Below, piece after piece: positions 4,782 through 23,781 of a DNA stretch of 23,832 nt. A program made the translations under genes and the position numbers. The notes under the pieces are model-generated. The model saw only the letters and a program-made list of their open reading frames with translations. It did no database searches and had not been told where the DNA came from. Origin of the DNA: a virus; the IMG/VR virus record IMGVR_UViG_3300031673_011527, positions 1 through 23,832 of that record. One strand, given 5' to 3'. Every line of letters starts with the position of its first letter. The stretch's first letter is position 1.

Positions 4782-5921
4782 ATGGATGTTTTCAGTGATC
4801 CAACAAAAGAAAAACACTTCTGGTCGATGATTGACAGTGAGTCTCCTGCCGCAAAAGAAACATTCACGAAGTTGTGGAAGAAAATAGAAACTACTACGCT
4901 AGAAAAGGACGATGCTTGCGCTTGTTTGGATGCTCTTTTTATCGACTCTCACGCACGCATTCTTCAAGCTCTAGGTAAATCGGCAAAAAGTCTTTACCCC
5001 ACCACGAAACGCAGTCTTAACCGACTTCAAGAGGTAGAACATATGTGGTGGGTAGACCATTTTACTGCCGGTATTTCACATACATCTACTTTAAATTGGT
5101 TCGGGGCAACCTCCGAAGGCCGAGCCTCGACACATTTCATCATCGGCTATCACACAGACCCTTTTTACATTATCCCTCTCAGACACAAAGCTTGGCATAC
5201 CCCTCGCCGAAATGCAGATAGCTGGAGTGTGGAGATGGTAAATGCAGGACCGGTCCAAAGTACGGGGAGTCGCCAAAGTGATTGGGCTATGTGGAATGAT
5301 CGAATACTCCCTATAAAATTGGTAAAAGAACTACCTCCCCAACCAGTGTCGCCTCCTTATAAGGGAGCGCATTATTTTCAACCGTTCACGGCTGACCAAG
5401 TAATCGCAAATATGAAACTAAAGCGCCTTATTCGCTGGGCTACAGAAGATAAACTTCTCTCCGAAGCGCGTATGTCTCAACATTCTCAGTGGCAAGAAGG
5501 TAAATTCGACATGGGTCCCCTCTGGCCTTTCGACGAGATTAACACAGCTGTGTTCGAGAACTACCCCTTAGAGGAGCTGGCCTCATATCAGCAAGCCATC
5601 GAAGCTGTCTACCTTCCGTCTAACGATAATGTCTGTGATGCCATATTCGACGACAGTGATACTTGTCCCAATAATCCTGAATATGGGGTCGACGCTAATC
5701 CGGACAAAGAATCCGACCCAAAAACAGTGATCTCAACGAAAGACATACAGCTACTCCTATCCAACCGAGGCCACATCATCCAAATTGATGGAATCTATGG
5801 ACCGGAAACAAAGAAAGCGGTGAAAAATTTTCAACGACGTTTTAACAACACTAATCCTTCCGAGCTACTTATTGTAGACGGTATTGCTGGACCACGAACC
5901 CTAGAAAAACTAACGAGGTAA
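4782..5921 (+). CDS. endolysin: N-acetylmuramoyl-L-alanine amidase with peptidoglycan-binding domain
   Basis: This 379-residue lysis enzyme probably cleaves the amide bond between N-acetylmuramic acid and L-alanine to release progeny. Residues 88-250 match an Amidase_2 (PGRP/AmpD-like) fold: VDHFTAG with H93, ASTHFIIG, AWHTP, SVEMVNAG with E151, and a final QHSQWQEGKFDMGP segment with H234 and D243. By analogy with AmpD, H93, H234 and D243 are the likely zinc ligands and E151 a catalytic residue. Residues 319-379 form a PG_binding_1 domain with two IDGIYGPET/VDGIAGPRT-type repeats. An acidic linker with two cysteines joins the domains, and the first 85 residues are an unassigned extension. 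No signal peptide is visible, so a holin should be needed, but none was found next to it. The Shine-Dalgarno AGAGG merges with the stop of the preceding gene. Confidence 0.88.
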   Translation: MDVFSDPTKEKHFWSMIDSESPAAKETFTKLWKKIETTTLEKDDACACLDALFIDSHARILQALGKSAKSLYPTTKRSLNRLQEVEHMWWVDHFTAGISHTSTLNWFGATSEGRASTHFIIGYHTDPFYIIPLRHKAWHTPRRNADSWSVEMVNAGPVQSTGSRQSDWAMWNDRILPIKLVKELPPQPVSPPYKGAHYFQPFTADQVIANMKLKRLIRWATEDKLLSEARMSQHSQWQEGKFDMGPLWPFDEINTAVFENYPLEELASYQQAIEAVYLPSNDNVCDAIFDDSDTCPNNPEYGVDANPDKESDPKTVISTKDIQLLLSNRGHIIQIDGIYGPETKKAVKNFQRRFNNTNPSELLIVDGIAGPRTLEKLTR

Positions 5922-6712: not shown

Positions 6713-7755
6713 GTGAGGAGAACCAAAACGGATTACCCGAGACGTTAAGTCGAAAAGAAGTAAATGAGGCTGCACTGGATAGTCTCATATCAGACATCGA
6801 TGAAATCATCCCGGCGGTTGATCTCCCGAAGGACAACCCTAAAATGAATGTTGTAAAACCAGGAAAACCTGTAACCGACCAAAAAACCCCGATAAAAATG
6901 AAATTAAAAGACTTGTCACTGGCTGAGTCTTGGAATCGAGATACGCTTCGAGATGTCGATAAATTGGCCCAAGCTCTTCTCGCAGAAGGGCAGCTCGTTC
7001 CGCTTTTAGTTCATCAACAAAAAGACGGGAAAATGGAGGTCATTGACGGGCGTCGGCGCTATGCGGCTATGAAAGAAGCAGGTATCACTGACGCCCTCGT
7101 CACTGTCGTCAATTGTCCAGACGATGGTACCTTCGAACGAATAAGCGCCGCCGCCAACCTAGCGCGTGCTGAACACACGACCATGGAGCTTTGCCACATC
7201 TTTACCCGCCTCCGAGATCGCGGAAATAAAATAAAAACAATAGCTCAGACGATGGGTTTCTCCGAGGCTAAAATCGGGCAGTATATGAAATTGGAAGTAC
7301 TACCCGAAGACGTAAAGAAACTTCTTGATTCGGGAAAGTTAGATTTTACCGCAGCCCAAGCTCTTACTCGTCTTGACTACGACGACTCCCGAGACCTGAA
7401 GTATTTCGACCGTATCATGTTGCAGCTACAAACTGGAGTACTCACGGCTACTACGATTATTGCTGCTATCGAAAAATACACCTCACGCCGTGCCGCAGCC
7501 GACAAAGCTGCTGGTAAAGTAGCTAAGAAGAAACGCGGACGGAAGTTTGGCCAAAAGACCGAAAATTACGATTACTTAGACACAACATACCTCAAACAAG
7601 TCAAGCCCATTACCGTCGCTAAAAGATTCGGAGAGATCTTAATGGCGTTACAAGATGAGCGAAACAACGCCCGCACCGCAGTAAAGAAAGCTTTTATTGA
7701 TGGAAAAATGCTCCAGGCTAAACAAATCGCTGGATTAGAGCCCTTCGATGATTAG
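6709..7755 (+). CDS. ParB/Srx-domain DNA-binding protein
   Basis: This 348-residue protein has a ParB-type N-terminal nucleotide-binding domain at about residues 62-150. It includes QLVPLLVHQ, VIDGRRRYAAMKEAG (GRRR at 114-117, corresponding to the ParB CTP-binding GxRRxxA motif) and AANLARAEHTTMEL, equivalent to the ENxQRxxL segment. A helix-turn-helix follows at about 174-200 (IKTIAQTMGFSEAKIGQYM). The first 60 residues look disordered and acidic. A basic stretch (KKKRGRK, near 274) precedes a C-terminal domain. AAGGAG seven bases before the ATG and an ATGA overlap with the previous gene support the start. No ParA ATPase or palindromic parS-like site was seen. The protein may segregate or organise phage DNA, or act as a transcription regulator. 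It converges on the sigma gene with a 4-base overlap of the stop codons. Confidence 0.85.
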   Translation: MSEENQNGLPETLSRKEVNEAALDSLISDIDEIIPAVDLPKDNPKMNVVKPGKPVTDQKTPIKMKLKDLSLAESWNRDTLRDVDKLAQALLAEGQLVPLLVHQQKDGKMEVIDGRRRYAAMKEAGITDALVTVVNCPDDGTFERISAAANLARAEHTTMELCHIFTRLRDRGNKIKTIAQTMGFSEAKIGQYMKLEVLPEDVKKLLDSGKLDFTAAQALTRLDYDDSRDLKYFDRIMLQLQTGVLTATTIIAAIEKYTSRRAAADKAAGKVAKKKRGRKFGQKTENYDYLDTTYLKQVKPITVAKRFGEILMALQDERNNARTAVKKAFIDGKMLQAKQIAGLEPFDD

Positions 7756-8696
7756 TATAATTCAGTCAAATCTTTGATTGAATAAGACCTCTGCAATTTT
7801 GTTTTTAACTTTATTAAAATGACATCCCGTATCTGGCGTACTCTTTCCGATGTAATTCCAGCAGCTGACGCTATTTGCATTAACGTCTTTTCTTCGGTCC
7901 TCCGAGTTTCTTCCGCAACATCATAGTGCTGAAGAATAATAAATTTATCTCGAGGCCGTAAATCAAGACTATCTACAATTTTTCGAAGTAGGGCCGCACT
8001 ATCGGCGTCAATTACAGAATCTTCTATTTCTTTTTCACGAATGCCTAAAGCATGAGAAGGAGTACTTTCTAGCGGTATAAGGGAGTGGTAGGCAAGGTCT
8101 TTTTCAACAAGAGTTTCAAAACTATCGTACTCGGGCATCGATTTCTTATTACGCTGACGGTGAAGAGGTATGTGTACTAAACTCGTCTTGTGTAATTCAT
8201 CCAGCATTTCTTTTCTAATCCACCAAGCCGCATATGTAAGAAATCGAGTTCCATGTTTAAAATCGTATTTATCTATTGCCAAGACTAACCCCACGTTTCC
8301 GGCCGAGATTAAACGCTGAATAGACTGGGGCGTCTTGGCGAATTTTTTCGCAATCTTCACAACGAAACGTAAATTAGCTTGTAAAAGTTTTTCACGCGCA
8401 ACCAAGTCTCTCTCAGAGCCGCAATGAGGACAATAAATAGGAGGATGAAATGGGTTGAAACGGGCAGTACAATTTGTGCAAATTACAGGACGCCCTTTTT
8501 GAACACGTTCTGTAACGGGGTGACGACAAGTGGGACATAATATTTGCTTTACTAAATTAGGAATACGTTTCTCGCATTTAGGACACGTCTTATACCGCGT
8601 AAGATATGCGCGTTCTTCCGTTGCGGTAATTATTCCATGCCTTCCAACGTCATTATAGTAGGCTTGAAATGTCCTATCACTGTAACTATCACTCAT
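7752..8696 (-). CDS. phage sigma-70-family RNA polymerase sigma factor with two zinc ribbons
   Basis: This 314-residue factor should redirect host RNA polymerase to phage promoters. Region 1.2-like sequence occupies residues 9-35. Regions 2.1-2.4 occupy about 102-172, with LLQANLRFVVKIAKK, SAGNVGLVLAIDKYDF and GTRFLTYAAWWIRKE, the core-binding and -10-recognising helices. Region 4 spans about 243-301 and includes the HTH IASAAGITSERVRQIR. Region 1.1 is absent and region 3 is short. Between regions 1.2 and 2.1 lie four CxxC pairs (C38/41, C54/57, C73/76, C89/92), consistent with two zinc ribbons. The ATG at 8696 is chosen over an upstream in-frame ATG at 8744 because GGAGGTG lies six bases before it. 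It is a lone minus-strand gene between two plus-strand operons. Confidence 0.9.
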   Translation of the reverse strand: MSDSYSDRTFQAYYNDVGRHGIITATEERAYLTRYKTCPKCEKRIPNLVKQILCPTCRHPVTERVQKGRPVICTNCTARFNPFHPPIYCPHCGSERDLVAREKLLQANLRFVVKIAKKFAKTPQSIQRLISAGNVGLVLAIDKYDFKHGTRFLTYAAWWIRKEMLDELHKTSLVHIPLHRQRNKKSMPEYDSFETLVEKDLAYHSLIPLESTPSHALGIREKEIEDSVIDADSAALLRKIVDSLDLRPRDKFIILQHYDVAEETRRTEEKTLMQIASAAGITSERVRQIRDVILIKLKTKLQRSYSIKDLTELY

Positions 8697-8702
8697 CTTA
8701 TT

Positions 8703-8709
8703 CACCTCC
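8703..8709 (-). promoter_or_regulatory. strong Shine-Dalgarno of the sigma gene
   Basis: On the minus strand GGAGGTG ends six bases before the ATG at 8696. It decides the start of the sigma factor and is among the strongest sites in the window. Confidence 0.75.
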
Positions 8710-8766
8710 CAATAATTACTTATTAGAACACATGAAGCTTGCATCAGACAACACTCGGATGGTAGT

Positions 8767-9961: not shown

Positions 9962-10798
9962 ATGCCTGTCGAAATAACACCTTTTGTTAAAAAATACACC
10001 CCTTGGTCCGCAAGCAAGTCTGACATTGCAGAACAATGTCCCCTCAAATTCAAACACACGTATGTGCATAAGACCCAAAAAGGAAGGCCTAAAACAGAAG
10101 CTCTAGTAGGGATTGCCTTACACAGAATACTCGAGCTAAGCCTAGCAGGAAAACCTCTTGAAGACGCCCGGAAGCAAACAGTCTCAGACCCTAAAGCTCG
10201 ACTTCTTACTGTTGAGCGTGAACAAGTAGACGCCGGTATACCAGCCGTATCGACCTTTCTCCGACGGACTACTGCTTTCATAGAAAAAATGGGCGGAGCA
10301 GACCTTCTTATTGAAGGGAGACTTGCGTCTTCATTCGCAGGAAAAACACTAAAATTCTTCGATAATAAGGGTTTCTTCCGTGGTGTACTCGACCTAGGCA
10401 TCCTATTTAAAAACAGACCTCATATGATGGTCATCGACCATAAAACAGGTAAAAACCGAGGAATTAATTATTACAACTGGCAATTCCTAACTTACACCCT
10501 TCTTGCAAAAGTAAATTACCCGCATATCACTCATGTGGTACCGGCTATTCATTGGGTGCAAGATACAATCACCGAAATAGGTAACCCCATTAAAGTTCCA
10601 AGCGTTCCTGACCTGCTAGATAAGGTGGTGGAGCACCTAAATCAAGCAACAGGAAACGCGGCTATCAATCTAGACGTTGGACAACCGAGCAAACTATGTG
10701 GATGGTGTGATTACCAAATACTCTGTCCACTCAGTCCCCAAGTGATAGGAGCAGCCGAAAATGAGTGCGAAAGCGACAAAGGCAGCAAATACTGCTAA
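9962..10798 (+). CDS. Cas4/RecB-like PD-(D/E)XK nuclease with Fe-S cysteines (copy 2)
   Basis: This 278-residue nuclease lies directly upstream of the primase. Motifs: C26 in EQCPLKFKHTY, GIALHRILE with H54, RGVLDLG with D144, MVIDHKTGK with D159 and K161, and WQFLTYTLLA with Q174 and Y178. The C-terminal CGWCDYQILCP (C246, C249, C255) with C26 gives the Cas4/AddB-like 4Fe-4S set. All catalytic residues of the PD-(D/E)XK core are present. ATG 9962 is preferred to the in-frame TTG at 9929, which lies inside the terminator stem, because AAGGA sits eight bases before it. The 3' end overlaps the primase gene by 38 bases. Beyond the shared motifs it is quite different from copy 1, so the two are probably not a recent duplication. 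Confidence 0.88.
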   Translation: MPVEITPFVKKYTPWSASKSDIAEQCPLKFKHTYVHKTQKGRPKTEALVGIALHRILELSLAGKPLEDARKQTVSDPKARLLTVEREQVDAGIPAVSTFLRRTTAFIEKMGGADLLIEGRLASSFAGKTLKFFDNKGFFRGVLDLGILFKNRPHMMVIDHKTGKNRGINYYNWQFLTYTLLAKVNYPHITHVVPAIHWVQDTITEIGNPIKVPSVPDLLDKVVEHLNQATGNAAINLDVGQPSKLCGWCDYQILCPLSPQVIGAAENECESDKGSKYC

Positions 10799-13700
10799 AC
10801 TCTCCCGCGCACAATTAAAGAAAGTCTGGGATGCTATGGCATCCAGTGATTGGCTGAACCTACCAAATATGGGTTCTTTAGCCGCCCGGACATATAAACA
10901 AAACGACCTCGTGTGTTTGTGCCCCCATCCAGACCACCCCGACACAACCCCCTCGTTTCACATCTATACTCGGCAACACCATGGACATTGCTTTGGATGT
11001 GGATATAACCCTACAGACCCGATTGAACTTGTTGCCAACATTACGCAGAACTCATACTTAGATTCCTTAAATTACATCTCCAGCGTTATCCCCGGAGCTT
11101 CTACCTTAAAAATTGGAGCTAACCTAGCTCTATTAGGTCAGCAACAATTAATACAAGAAGCTAAAAATTTATTTATGTATGTCTGTCACGAGCAATTAGT
11201 CTTAGCAGCACAGACCTATAAAAGTGGGCTTACTCACCGAAGCACAGTTAGTAATTTCGATACCCTTCGGGACGATGACTTGGCCAATTGCAGCTTAGAA
11301 CAATTACCTACTGAACCAGATTACCCTGGAGAAAACGAAAACGATACTGAATCGACTTCCATCGTTGTAGCAAAAGCGCTTCCTAGTAATGTTATCCCTA
11401 TCACAGGATTTGAAACAGATGGAATAGGACTTAAAGATTTTGACTATGCTATGGCTACAATAAGATGGCTTGTAGAAGTTAGAAAAATACCCCTAGACCT
11501 TTTGCCGCAGTTACCAATTGGAATTATGCCACCTCTTTCGGCTATACTAATATTAGCCCGGCAATACCCCATAAAAAATCAAATGTCTAAAATGGGGAAT
11601 GTAGAATACGAAATCGTAGAACTCCTACAATCCTTACAGAACTTCCTCTCCGCAGACCAAAATAAAGGTGCCGTCGCTATCGGAACAGGCTCCGTGGTTT
11701 TCCCTCTATGTACTACCGATTCGCATATAACCTCTTTCAGAATTCGACAACCTAACGAACCTGGAGAATCCAAAAGAATTAATTTATTCCAAGATAACTT
11801 CGAACCTGGAGCGGGGTTTTTCGGAGTCAATTTTCAACCGTATAAACAATACCACCGGACAGCATCCCCGGGGAATTTGAAATCTTACATTGTCGTGGAG
11901 GGGGAATTCGACGCCCTCCAACCAATGATCCGGGTATTACAAACAGATAAGGTAGAGTGTCCTGTAATCAGTGCTGGTGGAAATAGCTCGTTAGCCTTGT
12001 TCGATGACTTCATCGAAGCTAACGACGTACACAATATGTTATTGATGGGGGACTCCCCCACTAAAGCTGCTAACGATACCGGGTCTACAATTATTTCACA
12101 GTGGACTCGACACATCTCCAAAGCAAATATATCAATTTTCTCTGGTGAATCCTGGGAGAAACTAACTCCGGCTAACGACCTAGACCATGCCTATACGGAA
12201 TCCGGATTATCCTCAGAAACTATCGAAACTGCACTATATGGTGTTAGAAATTATATCCCTGCCTGGCGCTGGGCATTCGACCGAGCGCAACCTACCCTGG
12301 AAACCTACCACGAAGACAACGTGGCTGCCCTTATCGCTAGTGCCGCCTCTTTTGGACAGGGACTAAACAACCGGTCTGACATCGACGCCTACGTGCTCTA
12401 CGTACACGACATGTACCCTATCGTTAAACCTGGACCCCTGAAAAGAGCACTAACCTCCCAGGGTGACGGAGAAACCGGTTTCATATCTCGAATTGCAGAT
12501 ACCATTATTGACCATTACGACGTCATAGGTGTCAAAAATAGTGACCGCGGTGGAAAAGACCTTCTTCTTTATCACCGCGAAGACTGTAGATTCACAACCT
12601 TAAAACTCGACAGCGAACAAAGTATCGTTCAAGAAATTGCTCAACTTGCGGGAACTCTACATACATTCATCGTCGATAGCGTTGGATTTCCTGATTTTTT
12701 AATTGGCGAGGATACTACCGCATCAAAGCTAGTCTCAATCCTTCAGTCCCAAGATAGAAAACTTCGATATTACGTAAAAGAAGCAGTGCTCACATTGGCA
12801 TCCGGAGCACCGGACATGGACGGCCTACGAAAACTAAGAAATGGATATCACTACTTAACTGACCGGGAGATGCTTGTTCACGGAGCGAAATCGTATGAGT
12901 TTAACCGCAACGAAGACAGTTTACTCTTTAAAGAAGGTAAAACTGCGCGAATTGACAACTACCTTATTGATGTTTATGGCGAAGACTCCTACCAAAGAGA
13001 ATGCTGGTATACCCCCGAGCCTGTGACACCACAACTACTTCTCGACTCTCAAAATTACGATATGCTCGATGTTTATAACGAATTAATACGATACTTTGAC
13101 ACGGGGTTCTCCTTCGACAACCAATTATCTACTTGTAAACTCCTAGCTGGTCTAATATTAACCTTCCCAATTATGTCCAGTTTCGACCGGCAAATTGTCA
13201 CACATTTCACGGGAGATACAGGGTCTGGAAAATCAACACTTATATCCGTATTTAGCCAAGTAGATAAAGACTCAAGTAACATGTCTATTCAACTTCTATA
13301 CGCCTCTCGGTACTTCCTTAAAATTACAGCTTCAGCCTTCACGCGTTTAGCTTCGCATAGTACAGTATTACATTGTATCGACGAGCTGGAATTTGATTCT
13401 TCTACCCAACGAAAACACAGTGAAGGCGTTATGGAATCCTTACGAGGTATTACATCTGGGGGTGGAAGCCGTACCGTCTCTAAAATGGATGGGGAAGGAA
13501 CAACTACCCATAAGTATAACGTCCCAGTTGTTTTCGCCAGTATTACAGGAACCGAAAAACCCCAAGACTTAAATCGATTAATTACGGTAAACATGAAAAA
13601 AATAGACGGGAGAGAGGATCCAAATTCAGCCATATACCGTACGTATGGCGAAAGAGAGTTTACGAAATTACGGAGGGCTATCAATTTCGGTATGTACAAG

Positions 13701-14468
13701 TATATCCCCACTATTCGTAAGACGTATGACTCACTCCGACATAGCTACGCCGCGATTAATGCCACCCTCCCTATCAAAGTTGAATTTCGTTATATGTCGG
13801 CTTTTTTCCCAATATTCGCAGTCATGGATGCTATCGGAGTAGACTACAAATCATTCTTTCAAGATTATATCGCTAGCAACGAAATTCTTATAAAGAGGAA
13901 CACCGGCGTTAGTGAATCTGAAAGTTTCATGTCCAAAATCTTTCATTGTAAAACAATAAAACTAGGGGAGTCAAAAGACGATACCCATTTGCACACGTTA
14001 GCCACCGTCCTCGTAAATAAACTCTGGCTCCGTCAACTCAACGACGCGGAAGTTGGAGTATTCTATGACGAGAAAGATAAACTCCTGCTTTTCAATCTAG
14101 AACAAGTTATTAATACCTTAATGCCCTTTCAAGTCAGATTAAAATCCGGTATCACAGCTATGGGTTTACGTAACCTTCTAGAACGACATAAAGCCGCACT
14201 GACACCCTCTGAAATATTAAACTCGGGAGTCATCAATAGAGCTTCTGTTAATATGGGGGTTGGCTTACGCCTACACGACGTTGCGGTATTTCATCTCCAA
14301 TATTGGCTAGAAGAGTATGCAGAAACAACTGGTCCAGTACATACCCCTAATAAACACCCTGCAACAAAAACTCCATCAACATCCATACAAACTACTACAG
14401 CCGAAACAAAAGACAAAGAAAAAGAAGAGGTACCTAAAATTGTTACCGCAACCAGCGAATGGCTCTAG
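10761..14468 (+). CDS. primase-helicase: zinc finger, TOPRIM-like and AAA+/SF3-like ATPase domains
   Basis: This 1235-residue protein appears to combine primase and replicative helicase functions. A DnaG/gp4-type zinc finger lies at 54-80: CPHPDHPDTTPSF, then HCFGCG with C77 and C80. A TOPRIM-like region spans about 374-470, with IVVEGEFDAL (E380) and LLMGDSPTK (D431). The usual DxD is not intact; a later NDTG at 438-441 may supply one acid. A long region of unknown fold follows. The ATPase has Walker A GDTGSGKS at 818-825 and Walker B CIDELEF with D874 and E875. A TGTEKP segment may be sensor I, and this part resembles SF3/DUF927-type phage helicases more than DnaB. The last 40 residues are Thr/Lys/Glu-rich and disordered. 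AGGAG precedes the ATG by nine bases. It overlaps the nuclease gene upstream and the polymerase downstream. Confidence 0.85.
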   Translation: MSAKATKAANTAKLSRAQLKKVWDAMASSDWLNLPNMGSLAARTYKQNDLVCLCPHPDHPDTTPSFHIYTRQHHGHCFGCGYNPTDPIELVANITQNSYLDSLNYISSVIPGASTLKIGANLALLGQQQLIQEAKNLFMYVCHEQLVLAAQTYKSGLTHRSTVSNFDTLRDDDLANCSLEQLPTEPDYPGENENDTESTSIVVAKALPSNVIPITGFETDGIGLKDFDYAMATIRWLVEVRKIPLDLLPQLPIGIMPPLSAILILARQYPIKNQMSKMGNVEYEIVELLQSLQNFLSADQNKGAVAIGTGSVVFPLCTTDSHITSFRIRQPNEPGESKRINLFQDNFEPGAGFFGVNFQPYKQYHRTASPGNLKSYIVVEGEFDALQPMIRVLQTDKVECPVISAGGNSSLALFDDFIEANDVHNMLLMGDSPTKAANDTGSTIISQWTRHISKANISIFSGESWEKLTPANDLDHAYTESGLSSETIETALYGVRNYIPAWRWAFDRAQPTLETYHEDNVAALIASAASFGQGLNNRSDIDAYVLYVHDMYPIVKPGPLKRALTSQGDGETGFISRIADTIIDHYDVIGVKNSDRGGKDLLLYHREDCRFTTLKLDSEQSIVQEIAQLAGTLHTFIVDSVGFPDFLIGEDTTASKLVSILQSQDRKLRYYVKEAVLTLASGAPDMDGLRKLRNGYHYLTDREMLVHGAKSYEFNRNEDSLLFKEGKTARIDNYLIDVYGEDSYQRECWYTPEPVTPQLLLDSQNYDMLDVYNELIRYFDTGFSFDNQLSTCKLLAGLILTFPIMSSFDRQIVTHFTGDTGSGKSTLISVFSQVDKDSSNMSIQLLYASRYFLKITASAFTRLASHSTVLHCIDELEFDSSTQRKHSEGVMESLRGITSGGGSRTVSKMDGEGTTTHKYNVPVVFASITGTEKPQDLNRLITVNMKKIDGREDPNSAIYRTYGEREFTKLRRAINFGMYKYIPTIRKTYDSLRHSYAAINATLPIKVEFRYMSAFFPIFAVMDAIGVDYKSFFQDYIASNEILIKRNTGVSESESFMSKIFHCKTIKLGESKDDTHLHTLATVLVNKLWLRQLNDAEVGVFYDEKDKLLLFNLEQVINTLMPFQVRLKSGITAMGLRNLLERHKAALTPSEILNSGVINRASVNMGVGLRLHDVAVFHLQYWLEEYAETTGPVHTPNKHPATKTPSTSIQTTTAETKDKEKEEVPKIVTATSEWL
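14425..14431 (+). promoter_or_regulatory. Shine-Dalgarno supporting a TTG start for the polymerase
   Basis: AAGAGGT lies eight bases before the TTG at 14440, within the last codons of the primase gene. The alternative in-frame ATG at 14317 has no properly spaced site. This is the main reason for choosing TTG. Confidence 0.5.
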
Positions 14469-17400
14469 CGATTGTTATATCTGCCGTATTTCAAATGCCT
14501 GGAGTCACGAACACTGCCCTGAATGTCCTAGCTACCAAACCAATCATTATACAATTAGTAAAGGAGGCGAGATCGGCAACACTGACTTCTTCTGCGTAGC
14601 AGAATCTCCTCACTTAAGTAGCCTTGTACATAAAGAAAATCATTCCGGTTGGGTATTTGACATCGAAAGAACCATAGTTTCATTCTTCGATATCGCGGAA
14701 AAAAAATACAACCAATCCGTAGGTCGATTTACTTATGCAGTAAAATGCCAAGTCGAAAAACCTAACGCAAAAGAAATAAAGGCCTGTGCCCCCAACCTCG
14801 TAGACGAAATACTCCAGTACAGTAATCCAAAAAACCCTATTTGTATTTTCGTTATGGGAGCTACAGGTCTAAGGTCCCTCGGTATCAAATTCGGAAAATA
14901 TACCGATGTTATTAGTAAAACAATAGAAACTAAAATAGGCGGAAGAAAAGCTTACGTATTCGTCTCTATGTCTAAACGTCAACTCTCAGCCAAAGCAGGT
15001 TATTCACAAGTACTTATAAGACAAATAGAAATTTTCTTAGAAATGGTGCAAAAGAACCAGGAAGGTAAACTCGAAGAAAGGCATAAGATCCTTTCTCGTC
15101 TATCCAAAAATTACCGTTACCCAAAGACGATACAAGAGCTTGCTCTGTTAACTGAAGAAATTCTAAATTACGCAGTACCGGGAGAAACTGCAGCATCCTC
15201 CCCATTATCAATAGACACCGAAACTAATACCCTATATCCACACCGAGAAAAGTTAAAAATATTAATGGTATCGCTAGGTTGGGATGTGGGGAAAGCCGCG
15301 GCAATACAACTCGAACACCCTGAATCCGATATTAAATTAGAAGACGCTCGTCCCTACCTCGAGAAGCTTTTTCAATGTAATAAACCTAAAATCTTCGCTA
15401 ATGCTAAATACGATATCAAAGTAGTACAACGTAAAGACTTTAAAATTAACCGTTTATCTTGGGACGTCATCCTCGGAGAACATCTAATCGAAGAAGACAA
15501 AAAAGGCTTCTACGGTTTAAAGCATCTCGCCCGATTGCGCCTACCGGAGTTTGCATCATACGAAGATGAACTAAAAGAAATCTATGCAGGACGTGTAGAC
15601 CGAGAAAACCTTGAATTACCAGACATCAAGCAGGAAACAATCGAAGAACAACTACTGAAAAAACCCAAAGCAACTCGGAAAAAGAAAATAAAAATTGAAG
15701 AAGAAGAAGAAGGACCCAAAAAATCACGTTTGGAAAAGAAACTAGAGGCGGATGATGGGTATGCATTAATACCCCTACGGGACCTCTTAGTATATGCCGC
15801 TTTCGACGCCGATGTTACATTCAGAAGCGCTATGCAACAACGAAAAGAACTAACCGATGAGTGTAACGCACTAAATCACGAAAGACTCGCACATAAAAGA
15901 GCCCCTACCCTGCGTGCCCGGAAGGTAGGAGAAACACTTTGTAATATACCTAACCCACCTCTTTTCAACATGAAAAATAGAATTCTCCCTACCACCCGCG
16001 TCCTCGCCAAAATGGAATTGACGGGAATACCGGTAAATCGAGAATATGTCATGAGATTAAAGAAGGAAATGGATAGCTATATTGCAAGCTCGGAATCAAT
16101 ATTCCAGGATATGTTGCCTGTAGGACATACCAATTTCAACCCCGCGAGTACTCAGCACGTCGCCAACGTACTCTTTTCTACGGGATATTTAGACCCGGAA
16201 ACACAACAAGTCACTTGCTACGCAGGGAAAATAGAGCCTGAAAGAACTGAGAAAGGCGCCATATCAACCGGCGCTAAGTTCTTAAAGTTATTGACGTTGA
16301 CTCATAAGTGCAAATTCAGCGAAGCTGTTTTAGAGTTCCGTGCAATCAGTAAAGCCAGAACAACTTTCATCGAGAATATCGAAGTCTTAAGTCGCGAAGA
16401 CGGAAGACTGCATACCAACTTCCATCAACATTCTACTGCAACGGCTAGACTTTCATCCTCAGAAGAAAATATGCAAAACATCCCCTCCAAGATGGGACGA
16501 CCGCCTTTTCAATACAACATCAAACGGATCTTTGTCCCATCTCAAGAAGATTTCGTAATTGTTAATTGTGACGCCAAAGCCGCGGAAGTTCGTATCTACG
16601 CCGCGTATAGTAAAGACAAAGCGCTCATAGCCGCTCTGAATGACGGGATGGACCCGCACAGCTTCTTCTCATCTACCGTATACTGCCCCGAAAACATTCT
16701 ACGGGGTATCCCTAGAGCACAACACAAGTCCGTACTTGCTACCGTAGGCATCGATGAAAACCATGCGTGGAATTATGAAGATTTTGAAGCTCGAGATTCC
16801 TTAAAAATAACAAATAAAGATTATGGAACGCAGCTAAATACTCTACGTAAAAACATGAAGCGTGTTGTGTTCGGAATTATTTATGGTGCCGCTCAGACGA
16901 AAATTGCAGGAATTGTTGGGATACCTGAAGAACAAGCTGCAGCTATTATTCGCACACTATTTCGCATGTTCCCCTCTCTTGTAGATTACATCAATACTAC
17001 TAAAGAACAAGTCCGCCGTCTTGGCCTCGTAGAAACCTTCTTGGGTAGACGAAGGCATCTTAGCCTACAAAACCTACCAAACCACCTAAGAAGCAGAGCC
17101 GAGCGTCAAGCAGTCAATTTCAGAATTCAAAGTACAAGTGCTGAACTTGTACTGGAAGTACTCGGTGAAACTGAACCTGTTATATACCATGACTTTGATG
17201 GAAACATGCTAAACACCGTACATGACTCATTAGTGTTCGAACTGCACCAGAAGTACGTCAATCAAATGCCTGACTTCATACAGGATTATGGATTAAAACA
17301 AATAGCAAAAAAGTATCCTTGGCTCCCCGTACCGTTTGCCTGGGATACCAGTGTGGGTCCAACCTACGGAGATTTAATGTCTGTTGAGACATATCTCTCA

Positions 17401-17505
17401 AATAACCCTACCCCAAAAGACGAAGAAGACGATTATATCGATTTAGAAATACGCAATGAACTCTCGGAAGAAGCAATTTCAGGCACCCGGCGGCAAGCTA
17501 GTTAA
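14440..17505 (+). CDS. family A DNA polymerase with N-terminal uracil-DNA-glycosylase-like module
   Basis: This is the probable replicative polymerase, 1021 residues from the TTG. Residues 10-200 resemble a family 4-type UDG. The cysteines C12, C15, C103 and C116 are spaced as for its 4Fe-4S cluster, with VAESPH where GEAPG is expected and SMSKRQLS where HPSPL is expected. The 3'-5' exonuclease has SIDTETN (D259, E261), ANAKYD (N321, D325) and YAAFD (Y452, D456), interrupted by a charged insertion at about 394-440. The polymerase has motif A (D711, E716), motif B RKNMKRVVFGIIYG (R803, K807, F811, Y815) and motif C VHDSLVFE (H928, D929). All polymerase and proofreading residues are present. 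There is no 5'-3' FEN domain. The frame is open from ATG 14317, which would add 41 Gln/Lys-rich residues that look like a shadow of the primase tail. A fusion of UDG with phage PolA is, as I recall, known from SPO1-like phages. Confidence 0.9.
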   Translation: MLPQPANGSSDCYICRISNAWSHEHCPECPSYQTNHYTISKGGEIGNTDFFCVAESPHLSSLVHKENHSGWVFDIERTIVSFFDIAEKKYNQSVGRFTYAVKCQVEKPNAKEIKACAPNLVDEILQYSNPKNPICIFVMGATGLRSLGIKFGKYTDVISKTIETKIGGRKAYVFVSMSKRQLSAKAGYSQVLIRQIEIFLEMVQKNQEGKLEERHKILSRLSKNYRYPKTIQELALLTEEILNYAVPGETAASSPLSIDTETNTLYPHREKLKILMVSLGWDVGKAAAIQLEHPESDIKLEDARPYLEKLFQCNKPKIFANAKYDIKVVQRKDFKINRLSWDVILGEHLIEEDKKGFYGLKHLARLRLPEFASYEDELKEIYAGRVDRENLELPDIKQETIEEQLLKKPKATRKKKIKIEEEEEGPKKSRLEKKLEADDGYALIPLRDLLVYAAFDADVTFRSAMQQRKELTDECNALNHERLAHKRAPTLRARKVGETLCNIPNPPLFNMKNRILPTTRVLAKMELTGIPVNREYVMRLKKEMDSYIASSESIFQDMLPVGHTNFNPASTQHVANVLFSTGYLDPETQQVTCYAGKIEPERTEKGAISTGAKFLKLLTLTHKCKFSEAVLEFRAISKARTTFIENIEVLSREDGRLHTNFHQHSTATARLSSSEENMQNIPSKMGRPPFQYNIKRIFVPSQEDFVIVNCDAKAAEVRIYAAYSKDKALIAALNDGMDPHSFFSSTVYCPENILRGIPRAQHKSVLATVGIDENHAWNYEDFEARDSLKITNKDYGTQLNTLRKNMKRVVFGIIYGAAQTKIAGIVGIPEEQAAAIIRTLFRMFPSLVDYINTTKEQVRRLGLVETFLGRRRHLSLQNLPNHLRSRAERQAVNFRIQSTSAELVLEVLGETEPVIYHDFDGNMLNTVHDSLVFELHQKYVNQMPDFIQDYGLKQIAKKYPWLPVPFAWDTSVGPTYGDLMSVETYLSNNPTPKDEEDDYIDLEIRNELSEEAISGTRRQAS

Positions 17506-17506
17506 T

Positions 17507-19132
17507 TCATTCCTGCCAAAATTTAAGGTCATTCGTTATAATCTTCGCGGCTATCCAACCAAATAAACCCGCGTGGAGACAGTCATCTGGTCGCTGAGGT
17601 GAGTGTCTCCACACTTTTCTTCCTAGCATAGTTACATCTTCGTACTCGTTCAGAATATCTGCCATAGCCGTAGCCATCTCTGCAGCGGGGCCAAACTGCA
17701 CCTGTTTCTTTTTCAAAAGCATCACGTAGTTATCAATAACCGTCGTACGGTCCAGAAGATACCTATCTTGCCCGTTCCAATGCATTGCCTTTGAGGATGC
17801 ACCATACTGAACTTGTGTAACCCTGTTCGGGCCTAGAGCATTACGTATGATATCATTAGGAACACTACCTTCCCCCGCATCACCGACTACATATGACACC
17901 CTGTACAGATTACACACACGTACAATCTCTTCTACTGAATTCACTGGATTCTCACTTGGGTAAATACGGTAATACATACAACGCAATAACTTATCAAAAT
18001 TTCTAACTCCCCATACCCAAAGAACCGTCCGTGATACACCTCGCGTCCCACCTCCAGACCAATCCACTCCCGCAACGACTATGGACATGCCTTCCATATT
18101 TTCTGTAGTCGGGGACATAGCCAAGCTTGGTCCCGAACACAACTCCTCAAGCTCTTCCTTCGAAATCATGCGCGTACCGATTGAATCCGACACGCCCAAA
18201 ACTTCATTCTTAAATTTAGTGGGAGGTAGATTTTCGTGTTTATAAAGAACATCCTTCCACTGTTTTTCCGCAAATAATACGAGCTCTTGGTTATACCCCG
18301 CCCTCTCTACCGCTACGGGGCTACAATCAGGCATCGAAGGCTGACAAATATGAAAACCCTTTATACGGTCGTCCTCGTCAATTAGGGAATTAGTAGATAA
18401 TGGATCCGCAGTATCAATCCATTGACCTGCAAAGGTATTAAGGTAACCCCCACACTTAATACAAATCATTCCCCTTAGACCTAGACATTTTTCGGAGTCC
18501 GCAAACTGATGAGACCCGCAACTTTCACACTTTATCACCCACTCCGTTTGAGTACTTTGCTCCCATAAGTACTGGATAGTATTCTCCATTGTCTTAGGGG
18601 TACCCGCATAAGTCTCATACGCATATTTAGACCTAGTTAGACATTCATTGCCGATCACGATTACTGGGTCATAAAGGAGGTCTTGTACCTCATCGTATAC
18701 ATTCCGGTCTGTAGAAAGCCCTCGAAGCCGGTCAGCATCATCCAACGCATAAGCAAAAGCCATCTCTGAGCCATTCGTAAATTGCTTGTGAAGAACACGA
18801 TCAGAAAGTTCTGGGCTCAAAAACTTACGGTTAATAATCGGGGAATAACGCATGACCTTTGTAACGCGAGAATTAGAAAATCTCATCGTCTGCTCCTTCG
18901 ACGGCGTTACAAACAAAACAGAAAAATGTGGTATAAGAGAGCACTCAGCGATACCAAAATTCGCTAAGGTCGTAGACTTAGCAACCTGACGGCTTGTCTT
19001 CAATAGGGTACGGCGCCAGCGACCATCATAAAAAGCTCGATGCGCAGGCCACATATCCAAACGAAAAGGCTTCCCGTTTAAGTGCAACCAGGCTTCACAA
19101 ACATCTGAAAACGTGGCAGAAATAGACCTCAT
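17507..19132 (-). CDS. terL: terminase large subunit (DNA-packaging ATPase and nuclease)
   Basis: This 541-residue motor docks on the portal, pumps DNA into the procapsid and cuts it at the ends. The N-terminal ATPase has Walker A-like KTSRQVAKST (45-54) and Walker B NVYDEVQD with D147 and E148. The segment after it (TYAGTPKT, 175-181) fits coupling motif C. Residues 202-227 form an inserted zinc ribbon (C202, C205, C224, C227). The C-terminal RNase H-like nuclease has AGVDWSGG (D357), VVGDAGEG (D418) and RPDDCLHAG (D516/D517), the expected metal-binding acids. It converges on the polymerase gene with one base between stop codons and diverges from the MoxR gene with 21 bases between starts. 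No Shine-Dalgarno is visible before the ATG. No small terminase subunit was recognised here. Confidence 0.92.
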   Translation of the reverse strand: MRSISATFSDVCEAWLHLNGKPFRLDMWPAHRAFYDGRWRRTLLKTSRQVAKSTTLANFGIAECSLIPHFSVLFVTPSKEQTMRFSNSRVTKVMRYSPIINRKFLSPELSDRVLHKQFTNGSEMAFAYALDDADRLRGLSTDRNVYDEVQDLLYDPVIVIGNECLTRSKYAYETYAGTPKTMENTIQYLWEQSTQTEWVIKCESCGSHQFADSEKCLGLRGMICIKCGGYLNTFAGQWIDTADPLSTNSLIDEDDRIKGFHICQPSMPDCSPVAVERAGYNQELVLFAEKQWKDVLYKHENLPPTKFKNEVLGVSDSIGTRMISKEELEELCSGPSLAMSPTTENMEGMSIVVAGVDWSGGGTRGVSRTVLWVWGVRNFDKLLRCMYYRIYPSENPVNSVEEIVRVCNLYRVSYVVGDAGEGSVPNDIIRNALGPNRVTQVQYGASSKAMHWNGQDRYLLDRTTVIDNYVMLLKKKQVQFGPAAEMATAMADILNEYEDVTMLGRKVWRHSPQRPDDCLHAGLFGWIAAKIITNDLKFWQE

Positions 19133-19153: not shown

Positions 19154-20473
19154 ATGAGCGAAAACGATAACAAATCTACCGACATGTCATACGCAGAACT
19201 CTACAACATTCCACAAATGACAATAGGACAAATAAAAGACGAACTAGAACTAAGCTTCAAACAACGTCTTTTTCGAGGCGTATACTGTATCGTAGGCGAA
19301 GCGGGGCTTGGAAAGTCTCAAGCTGTACACCAAGCAGCTCGATCTTTGGGAGCTAGGGTTTGTGACATTAGAACCGCTCAATTTGGACTATTAGGTACCG
19401 GTGTCCCCTCAGTAAAAGATACCGACGAAAACTTCTTCACAATTAAAGTCCCTAAAATTTTCCCTCAAGCAGGTGAAAAAAGTATCGTTCTTTTTGATGA
19501 AATCAACCAAGGTCTGCAGCATGCTATTGCGATGTTCTTTAGCGTGATCGAAGACCGGCAAATTTATGACTACAAGCTACCCGATGACTGCCTTGTTGTA
19601 GCCTGTATGAACCCTTCAACCGCTTCTTACTCTGTTAATCAGATTGAAAATAATGCTGCCCTACGCCGAAGACTAAAATTTGTTTACGCGATACATTCTC
19701 CAGAAGAATGGCTATCACACGCTCGTACGCGAGAATTTCACTACAGTGACCGAAAATCTCCAGTAGTTCAAACAAAACAAGTACAAGAACTCTACAAAAC
19801 CAACCTAGAAAAAGCAGAACAACTTAACCTGGGTATGGCATGTCATGACCACGTACGCGCATTTATCAGTACAGCTCGTACCATGCTCTACGACGAAAAA
19901 ACTAAAAACGCCAACAAACCCTTTGCTTGTCCCGCTTCGTGGCAAACAATTTCTCTTGAATGCTACGCGATGGAAGCCGCCGGGATTAACCTAACTGGAA
20001 GCCGTGCGGAAAATCGATTCGGCGCAACCTTAAATATGACAACGGCGACTCAATTTTGTTCTTTCATCGAAGATAACCAAATAATCCTTTCCCCTATAGA
20101 ATTCCTCACCAATACGGATAATTTTATGAAGAAATTCGCCCTAGTAGAGGAATCCGGAAAGCAACCGCGTCTTATTGAATTTATTTATAATTTCTTAAAC
20201 TACATCTTCGAAACCGAATACGATACTGAGAAGGTATATACCGCTATCTCACGGTTATTTGATGATACCGCGGCTGAATACACGTCTCTGCTTACTGATA
20301 ATATCGCACCCACCGCAAAAAGCTTCAACAAAGAGGCCTATCGAGTTAAAGTGCTGAACTCACTAGTCGACGCGGACAAAGACCCGGATCGGCCTAACAA
20401 ATTCCGCCAATATATGAACCATATTGGGAAAGCGCACGACGACGTACAGAAAGCACTACAAAAAAGTAAATAA
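19154..20473 (+). CDS. MoxR-type AAA+ ATPase
   Basis: This 439-residue AAA+ ATPase is of the MoxR/RavA group, which usually acts as a chaperone with a VWA-domain partner. Walker A is GEAGLGKS (48-55), Walker B is SIVLFDEIN with D115 and E116, sensor I is in ACMNPST, and AALRRRLKF supplies the arginine-finger region. The C-terminal 200 residues are helical and unassigned. AGGA sits nine bases before the ATG. The likely partner is the VWA-like protein at 22333-23781, on the same strand but separated by two opposed genes. The substrate could be a virion assembly intermediate, by analogy only. Confidence 0.85.
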   Translation: MSENDNKSTDMSYAELYNIPQMTIGQIKDELELSFKQRLFRGVYCIVGEAGLGKSQAVHQAARSLGARVCDIRTAQFGLLGTGVPSVKDTDENFFTIKVPKIFPQAGEKSIVLFDEINQGLQHAIAMFFSVIEDRQIYDYKLPDDCLVVACMNPSTASYSVNQIENNAALRRRLKFVYAIHSPEEWLSHARTREFHYSDRKSPVVQTKQVQELYKTNLEKAEQLNLGMACHDHVRAFISTARTMLYDEKTKNANKPFACPASWQTISLECYAMEAAGINLTGSRAENRFGATLNMTTATQFCSFIEDNQIILSPIEFLTNTDNFMKKFALVEESGKQPRLIEFIYNFLNYIFETEYDTEKVYTAISRLFDDTAAEYTSLLTDNIAPTAKSFNKEAYRVKVLNSLVDADKDPDRPNKFRQYMNHIGKAHDDVQKALQKSK

Positions 20474-22332: not shown

Positions 22333-23781
22333 ATGACACCCCTAGACAAAAGACCAATACAAAATGCATTTTATTGGCTATGCAGTTATCGTGGAAATAA
22401 TAACTTTTTCGGAAGAGTTCTCAACAGCTGTCGACGTGAATTTACCGACAACGGCCCTATCGCTGGTGTACGAGTAGACAATGAAGGCCGCTACGTACTC
22501 CAAGCAAACATTCCCGAATTCAATAAACAATCGGTACTCCTACGTATTTGCATTATGGTTCACGAAGCCGGGCACCTCGCTCTTCGGCATTATGAACGAA
22601 TGTTGCGTATTGTAGGGGGCAAAATAAACCTTCACAAAGAAGACATGCTGCAAGAGATATGGAAACTTCTCAATATTGCAGGAGATTTAGCCGTAAATGA
22701 CCTTGCTATTCGCCCTCTAGTTATTGAAATAAGCCAACAAGCTTTCGAAGAAATCTCAGCACACGCTCTATTTCCTGAAAAATATGACCTGCCTTGTAAA
22801 CTAAGCCTCGAAGATTATTTCCTAAGGCTTATGAAAGATAAAACATTACGTGACAAAATCTTAAAAGATATTTCAGATTCAGAAATCGAAGTTAACTGCG
22901 AAATATTCGCTAATAGTCCGGGAGAAGGTTCAGAGGGCGAGGAATGTTCGAAAGGCGACTCCAACAATAACCAGGATACAATCATACGAATAAAAAATCT
23001 TTCTGGGGCAGAGCTCGAACGCTTGTCCAACAGTATCCAACGCAACACTGGAGGTATTATCAAAACAGCCGTCGAACAGACACAAAAATGCCAAGGAAAA
23101 ATCCCTGGATGTATGCAAGCGGTTATAGAAGAACTATTCTCGGAACCAAAAGTACCTTGGCCAATAATCCTTCGGAATCAAATTAAAAGCGTTATAAGTA
23201 ATAAAATAATATCCGCCATGACCATGCCGAACATCTCCCTCTTCCCCCTGATAGAAGAAGGCATTGAACCGTATCCTGGATACAACAACGATTTTACTTT
23301 CCGCATTACTTGCGCTACCGACACCAGCGGTTCTGTTTCCGACGAAGACTTCAAAATATTCATGGGTGAAATCGTGGCTATTATGCGGCAGTACCAAGGT
23401 ATTGAATTACGTTATATTTTATTCGACCATGGAATCCAACTGGAAAAAGTATTTACACGGACATCAAATGATTGCGAAATAGCCGAAATATCAAAACAAA
23501 TTCATACCCGGCACGGTTACGGAGGAACTGAATTTTGTGCTCCATTTAGACGTGTACTAGGAAGAGACACAGACCGGGATTGGGCCTCCGAAAAACCAAA
23601 TACTACTCTTACCCCTACAGATTTACTGGTAATATTTACTGATGGTTACGCTCCGGTCTCAGACGCACAAGCTGGTCCTATGCCCTCCCTAAAACCTCCC
23701 TGCCACGTTATTTGGGTAATCTGTAAAAACGGAACAATCGACCGGGCTATGCAGGATACAGTAGTTCAACTGGAGGATTAA
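22333..23781 (+). CDS. zincin-like (HEAGH) and VWA-like domain protein, probable MoxR partner
   Basis: This 482-residue protein combines two domains. The N-terminal part has MVHEAGHLALRHY (H77, E78, H81), the HExxH signature of zinc metallopeptidases, followed by helical sequence. The C-terminal part is VWA-like with a MIDAS-type set: DTSGSVS (D330, S332, S334), YGGTEF (T399) and IFTDGYAP (D437). A charged, Gly/Ser/Asn-rich linker lies at about 197-217. The architecture matches the putative metallopeptidase plus VWA-like family (DUF2201) often found with MoxR ATPases. AAAGGA six bases before the ATG supports the start. Whether it cleaves peptides or only uses the fold as an adaptor is unknown. 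Confidence 0.85.
   Translation: MTPLDKRPIQNAFYWLCSYRGNNNFFGRVLNSCRREFTDNGPIAGVRVDNEGRYVLQANIPEFNKQSVLLRICIMVHEAGHLALRHYERMLRIVGGKINLHKEDMLQEIWKLLNIAGDLAVNDLAIRPLVIEISQQAFEEISAHALFPEKYDLPCKLSLEDYFLRLMKDKTLRDKILKDISDSEIEVNCEIFANSPGEGSEGEECSKGDSNNNQDTIIRIKNLSGAELERLSNSIQRNTGGIIKTAVEQTQKCQGKIPGCMQAVIEELFSEPKVPWPIILRNQIKSVISNKIISAMTMPNISLFPLIEEGIEPYPGYNNDFTFRITCATDTSGSVSDEDFKIFMGEIVAIMRQYQGIELRYILFDHGIQLEKVFTRTSNDCEIAEISKQIHTRHGYGGTEFCAPFRRVLGRDTDRDWASEKPNTTLTPTDLLVIFTDGYAPVSDAQAGPMPSLKPPCHVIWVICKNGTIDRAMQDTVVQLED

Follow-up and report, generated by a model that had tools for sequence, protein, structure and literature searches.

Fusions of a uracil-DNA glycosylase (UDG) fold to a family-A DNA polymerase are already known from phages, with glycosylase modules that are intact or degenerate (SPO1 gp31, PaBG gp205, phiLo/9qhs); they also occur in herelleviruses and others, and degenerate motifs are common among the fused modules. 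The UDG-fold domain of Bacillus phage SPO1 gp31, which precedes an exonuclease and a family-A polymerase, matches the family 4 UDG of Thermus thermophilus (1ui0) with an E-value of 2.8e-27, and family 4 UDGs are often annotated as 'phage SPO1 DNA polymerase-related protein'. Its motifs are degenerate (QENPF, TSIVKY), it has none of the cysteines that bind the Fe-S cluster in family 4, it keeps the HP of motif B, and SPO1 itself carries a dUMP hydroxymethylase. Pseudomonas phage PaBG gp205 has an N-terminal UDG domain on a phage Pol I, assumed by its authors to remove uracil (PMC7412058). In the PolA proteins of Bacillus phage BSTP12 and Weizmannia phage Youna2, which lie beside 7-deazaguanine-type genes, the four cysteines are present, the uracil-recognising Asn is replaced by Tyr (FTYS/FTYA), motif A reads GDSPI and motif B retains FHP. 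The polymerase of Thermus phage phiLo (9qhs) carries a UDG module whose motifs look intact (GEAPG, LTN, NHPS and four Cys), and to judge from these motifs it is possibly a uracil-excising polymerase; our literature search found no paper on its structure. In vaccinia virus a separate UDG protein, D4, forms with A20 the processivity factor of the polymerase (PMC5682278).

The window analysed here is an entire IMG/VR virus record of 23,832 bases, and its polymerase gene (Table 1) codes for a genuine UDG-polymerase fusion, with a UDG fold N-terminal to an exonuclease and a family-A polymerase in a single chain, the arrangement that defines phage UDG-PolA proteins of the SPO1 gp31 and PaBG gp205 type. 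The TTG start at 14440 is preceded, nine bases upstream, by GAAGAGG (14424-14430). When the full fusion protein is compared with Pfam, the E-values are 7e-72 for DNA_pol_A, 5e-12 for the exonuclease and 1e-4 for UDG; the UDG match spans residues 97-185, that of the Pol I-type 3′-5′ exonuclease residues 232-365, and the family-A polymerase follows. These are the only three domains that Pfam reports, and the 5′-nuclease domain of Pol I is absent. In a full-length model, residues 217-980 superpose on Klenow-type fragments (Z 29-31), so that the UDG module occupies the place of the Pol I 5′-nuclease; the matches listed for this model are other polymerase chains, 9qhs not being among them. The polymerase and proofreading sites, described as intact in the original prediction, are so both in the window gene and in its relatives, with DTETN, NxKYD and YxAxD in the exonuclease and DAKAAE, R-x3-K-x3-F-x3-Y and VHDS in the polymerase.

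Table 1. Positions of the fusion gene, its domains and the residues discussed in the text; coordinates are those of the window unless a locus is given.
Feature	Position	Strand	Details
UDG-fold/3′-5′ exonuclease/family-A DNA polymerase fusion	14440..17505	+	1021 aa, TTG start; translation and Pfam
Family 4 UDG-type fold (predicted)	14491..15078	+	residues 18-213; AlphaFold2 model and VIA-align
3′-5′ exonuclease domain	15202..15849	+	about residues 255-470; PF01612; motifs intact
Family-A polymerase domain	15937..17379	+	about residues 500-980; PF00476; motifs A, B and C intact
C12-x2-C15, extra cysteine pair before the UDG fold	14473..14484	+	invariant, 31/31; outside the structural match
C26-x2-C29, equivalent of first Fe-S ligand pair (Tth C13/C16)	14515..14526	+	three agreeing alignments; invariant, 31/31
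Motif A position A54-E55-S56-P57-H58 (family 4 GE[AG]PG)	14599..14613	+	P57 invariant, 31/31
H68 and W71	14641..14652	+	H68 31/31; W71 aligned with the uracil-stacking Phe of GRPF
Y99 at the uracil-recognising Asn position (TNxVKC/TNVVKC)	14734..14736	+	alignments and residue table
C103 and C116, at the positions of the second Fe-S ligand pair (Tth C85/C101)	14746..14787	+	C103 31/31, C116 30/31
VMGATGLRSLG	14851..14883	+	residues 138-148; matches the family 4 VxLGATAxxxL strand-helix
Motif B position S176-M-S178-K-R180, replacing F-H-P	14965..14979	+	S178 at the catalytic His site
Primase/helicase-like gene	10761..14468	+	CHC2 zinc finger PF01807 and weak P-loop match; overlaps the polymerase gene start by 29 bases
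phiLo polymerase gene	L055:16090-19617	minus	family 4 UDG module with apparently intact catalytic motifs

The claim that the module is of the family 4 UDG type had been made from the letters of the sequence, with structure prediction and profile comparison against UDG families proposed as checks, and both bear it out. An AlphaFold2 model of the module, for which 15 sequences were aligned (pLDDT 82, pTM 0.83), shows a UDG fold and superposes (VIA-align) on the family 4 enzymes of Sulfolobus tokodaii (4zbx; Z 18.6, 2.5 Å over 172 residues, 19% identity) and T. thermophilus (1ui0; Z 18.2); the next structural neighbours by Z are UdgX (about 16-18), 2d3y (15) and TDG (13). The first 232 residues alone score 26.4 bits against the Pfam UDG family PF03167 (curated cut-off 24.3), which 12 of the 15 aligned module sequences match, and the profile-profile comparison of the module with family 4 UDG gives an E-value of 1.6e-9. 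The structural Z-score, the PF03167 score and the profile-profile comparison rule out a chance likeness. The module is not identified as a UdgX, since it reaches only 11.8 bits against the NCBIfam UdgX model (cut-off 190) and the segment between C103 and C116 is shorter and lacks the extra UdgX loop, located between the last two Fe-S cysteines, on which the crosslinking His109 lies. A query of cellular genome contigs with the module found no relative. Descent of the N-terminal 210 residues from a family 4-type glycosylase is the best explanation of these results.

Residue equivalences were taken from a profile-profile alignment and from a joint MAFFT alignment with bridging phage modules, the first cysteine pair also from HMMER, and conservation was read from a table of 31 related polymerases. 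All features originally named, C12-x2-C15, C103-x12-C116, AESPH (residues 54-58), VMGATGLRSLG and SMSKR (residues 176-180), are present. Their assignment as four Fe-S cysteines stands for C103 and C116 but not for C12 and C15: all three alignments place C26/C29 at the first ligand pair, and the structural match to family 4 starts at residue 18. Six cysteines rather than four are kept across the lineage, and in L097, the one exception at C116, a Cys lies nearby in an offset alignment. The four family 4 positions are thus all present (C26, C29, C103 and C116), as would suit an Fe-S cluster, and the extra pair C12/C15 is possibly a zinc or second metal site.

The catalytic motifs are altered throughout the lineage, as had been proposed. 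The reading of AESPH as a changed GEAPG stands; a complete loss of motif A does not, as E55 matches the Glu of GEGPG/GEAPG in the alignments and P57 is also retained. Position 55 is nevertheless variable (E in 23 sequences, D in four, N in three and I in one). An aromatic residue is found at position 71 in every sequence (W in 29, F in two). At position 99, 25 sequences have Tyr and the rest Ser, Phe or Ala, with Asn in none of the 31, and the motif-B His (HPSPL/HPAYLL), already reported as replaced, is Ser in all 31. A different alignment that restored the catalytic residues had been foreseen as an argument against altered motifs; however, the profile-profile and the joint MAFFT alignments place the same residues at the His and Asn positions, and the SKRQ segment of relatives contains no His. 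With the recognition Asn and the motif-B His gone lineage-wide and the motif-A acid not fixed, we strongly infer from these sequences that the module is most likely incapable of normal uracil excision, in agreement with the original prediction. The change of the Asn to Tyr99, which the original prediction does not mention, is at least as telling as the loss of the His.

Compared with the systems described above, the window module resembles the family 4 enzymes in its fold, in the four Fe-S-type Cys positions, in the Glu and Pro of motif A and in the aromatic residue at the Phe position, and differs from them in the Asn-to-Tyr and motif-B His-to-Ser changes, in its AESPH motif A, in the extra CxxC in front and in the fusion to a polymerase. 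With SPO1 gp31 it shares the domain order and degenerate motifs, but not the absence of cysteines or the retained HP. The BSTP12 and Youna2 modules are the nearest described (profile E 2e-10 to the window family) and also have the Tyr and four cysteines, but lack the extra CxxC and keep the motif-B His. The motifs of PaBG gp205 (LDYVP, HVPT) are more degenerate still than those of the window module. phiLo has the same UDG-exonuclease-polymerase order and its polymerase matches the module in Foldseek (E 1.9e-5), but differs in its apparently intact UDG motifs. What is distinct in the window lineage, to judge from the aligned residues, is therefore that six fixed cysteines are combined with Ser for His in all members and Tyr for Asn in most.

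A search with the whole protein identified 11 viral loci; more relatives were found with module profiles, and further ones with a profile of the polymerase alone, in which the module was not part of the query. All ten of the new close, full-length relatives found in this last search carry the module, while nothing matching it is seen in the three remote hits of that search, L106-L108 (22-25% identity). A separate second UDG was found in one record only (G004). Retention of the domain, together with the conservation of positions on the pocket side, indicates that the module still does something.

Six of the relatives (L020, L023, L025, L027, L034 and L043) have in-frame inserts of 130-427 aa in their polymerase genes, all at one point, after window residue 671 and before SSSEENMQNIP; the inserts start with Cys and end with HN. 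The three that were scanned match Pfam Intein_splicing, which points to inteins in the six relatives, and the window gene is without an insert. Another polymerase relative, L109 (QMZE01000001.1), lies on a contig of 78,677 bases, equal in length to that of L035, deposited in an Archaeoglobales genome bin; this may reflect an archaeal host of that relative or misbinning.

The reading that we favor, with a probability of about 0.55 for the whole, is that the module descends from a family 4-type glycosylase and is now a non-excising, basic DNA-binding part that helps the polymerase to hold DNA. Recognition of uracil would have been lost with the change of Asn to Tyr and stabilisation of the leaving group with that of His to Ser; the acid of motif A has become variable, and the fold, the four Fe-S-type cysteines with the extra CxxC, a pocket with its own conserved residues (P57, H68, W/F71 and S178) and a positive net charge are kept. 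Placed ahead of a family-A polymerase with ordinary proofreading, at the site of the Pol I 5′-nuclease, such a module would most likely act as a built-in binding and positioning device that holds the primer-template or the incoming template near the exonuclease and polymerase. By analogy with vaccinia D4 in the D4/A20 complex, where a UDG fold is likewise part of the processivity apparatus, this may raise processivity, and the role of the metal centre would lie chiefly in folding; the vaccinia case differs in that D4 is a separate protein, which A20 links to a family B polymerase. DNA binding would, on this analogy, be the most economical role for the module. Its net charge is positive in all 31 sequences (+2 to +17), but charge does not discriminate, as most of the family 4 UDGs used for comparison are just as basic. 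Two points count against the favored reading: E55 is retained in 23 of the 31 sequences, that of the window included, and enzymes of family 2 (MUG/TDG) work without the motif-B His, so that the module may retain some glycosylase activity or have an altered one. The 'structural' role offered as an alternative in the original prediction comes close to the DNA-holding role.

The most interesting rival is that the module reads template bases: a rebuilt pocket (W71, Y99, S178 and H68) would bind a particular template base, whether modified, a uracil or a lesion, leave it uncut and stall or license the polymerase. Archaeal family B polymerases, which have a uracil pocket, provide the model. That the pocket positions are re-specialised yet conserved, rather than drifting, speaks for such a function, as does 9qhs, a phage polymerase with a UDG domain whose entry is titled 'with modified template'. 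Elsewhere, UDG-fused polymerases often adjoin genes of the thymidylate-synthase type (SPO1, Serbin, Almagne and LysYB2) or of the 7-deazaguanine type (BSTP12, Youna2 and StAshley), an apparent association, seen in these named isolates. This support comes from outside the window lineage. Within it, thymidylate synthase/hydroxymethylase, dUTPase (two families), dCMP deaminase and QueD gave no match in the records searched, and ThyX gave one clear match in 20; the search covered six Pfam families and up to 26 records, mostly fragments, so that absence is unproven. Moreover, Y99 varies to S, A or F and E55 to N, D or I. We consider base reading in this general form unlikely, and somewhat more doubtful its narrower version, in which a metal-bound, non-excising UDG-fold reader (W/F71, Y99, S178, H68) would inspect template bases during synthesis, for example for a base modification or lesion specific to these phages. 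The earlier suggestion of non-standard bases in the phage of the window finds no support in these gene searches; in general, a link of UDG-fused polymerases to such bases may exist, in view of the neighbour genes in other phages.

A purely structural or protein-docking module with no role at the DNA, serving as a scaffold for the exonuclease or contacting the neighbouring primase-helicase, is improbable. It would fit with the faster evolution of the module (mean pairwise identity 45%, against 55% and 60% for the exonuclease and polymerase), with six fixed cysteines suited to a stabilising metal site, and with the overlap of the primase-helicase gene with the polymerase gene, the polymerase being immediately preceded in relatives, too, by a long open frame as large as a primase gene. 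However, P57, H68, W/F71 and S178, on the pocket side, are among the most conserved positions, and a pure scaffold has no need of them. Less probable again is an active glycosylase with a changed chemistry or substrate, in which E55 would activate water, Ser/Lys or H68 would replace the His, and a base other than uracil would be excised ahead of synthesis. E55 and P57 are kept in the window, the superfamily has active members that lack the His (MUG/TDG), and the phiLo module looks catalytically intact; yet eight of the 31 sequences have N, D or I at position 55, the Asn is lost in all, and an excising domain on a polymerase would make abasic sites in its own template. Decay of an unused domain is rejected, because all close full-length relatives found keep the module with its six fixed cysteines.

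In this lineage the residues of uracil removal have changed throughout, and the domain is nonetheless retained in every close full-length relative found, which argues that the polymerase needs the domain for its fold rather than for the removal of uracil. With the intact module of phiLo and the half-changed ones of BSTP12 and SPO1, the window lineage makes up a series on which simple assays can probe what the domain does.

Other genes of the window were noted in passing. The terminase large subunit (17507-19132, minus strand) lies directly downstream of the polymerase gene and is convergent with it. An endolysin-like amidase with a peptidoglycan-binding domain (4782-5921, plus strand) is found within the replication gene cluster. 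A sigma-70-like factor (7752-8744, minus strand) has a CxxC-rich stretch resembling a double zinc ribbon (residues about 54-111) just before region 2. An AAA ATPase (19154-20473) and a DUF2201 metallopeptidase/VWA protein (22333-23781), both on the plus strand, form a MoxR-VWA-like pair that flanks two minus-strand genes of unknown family.
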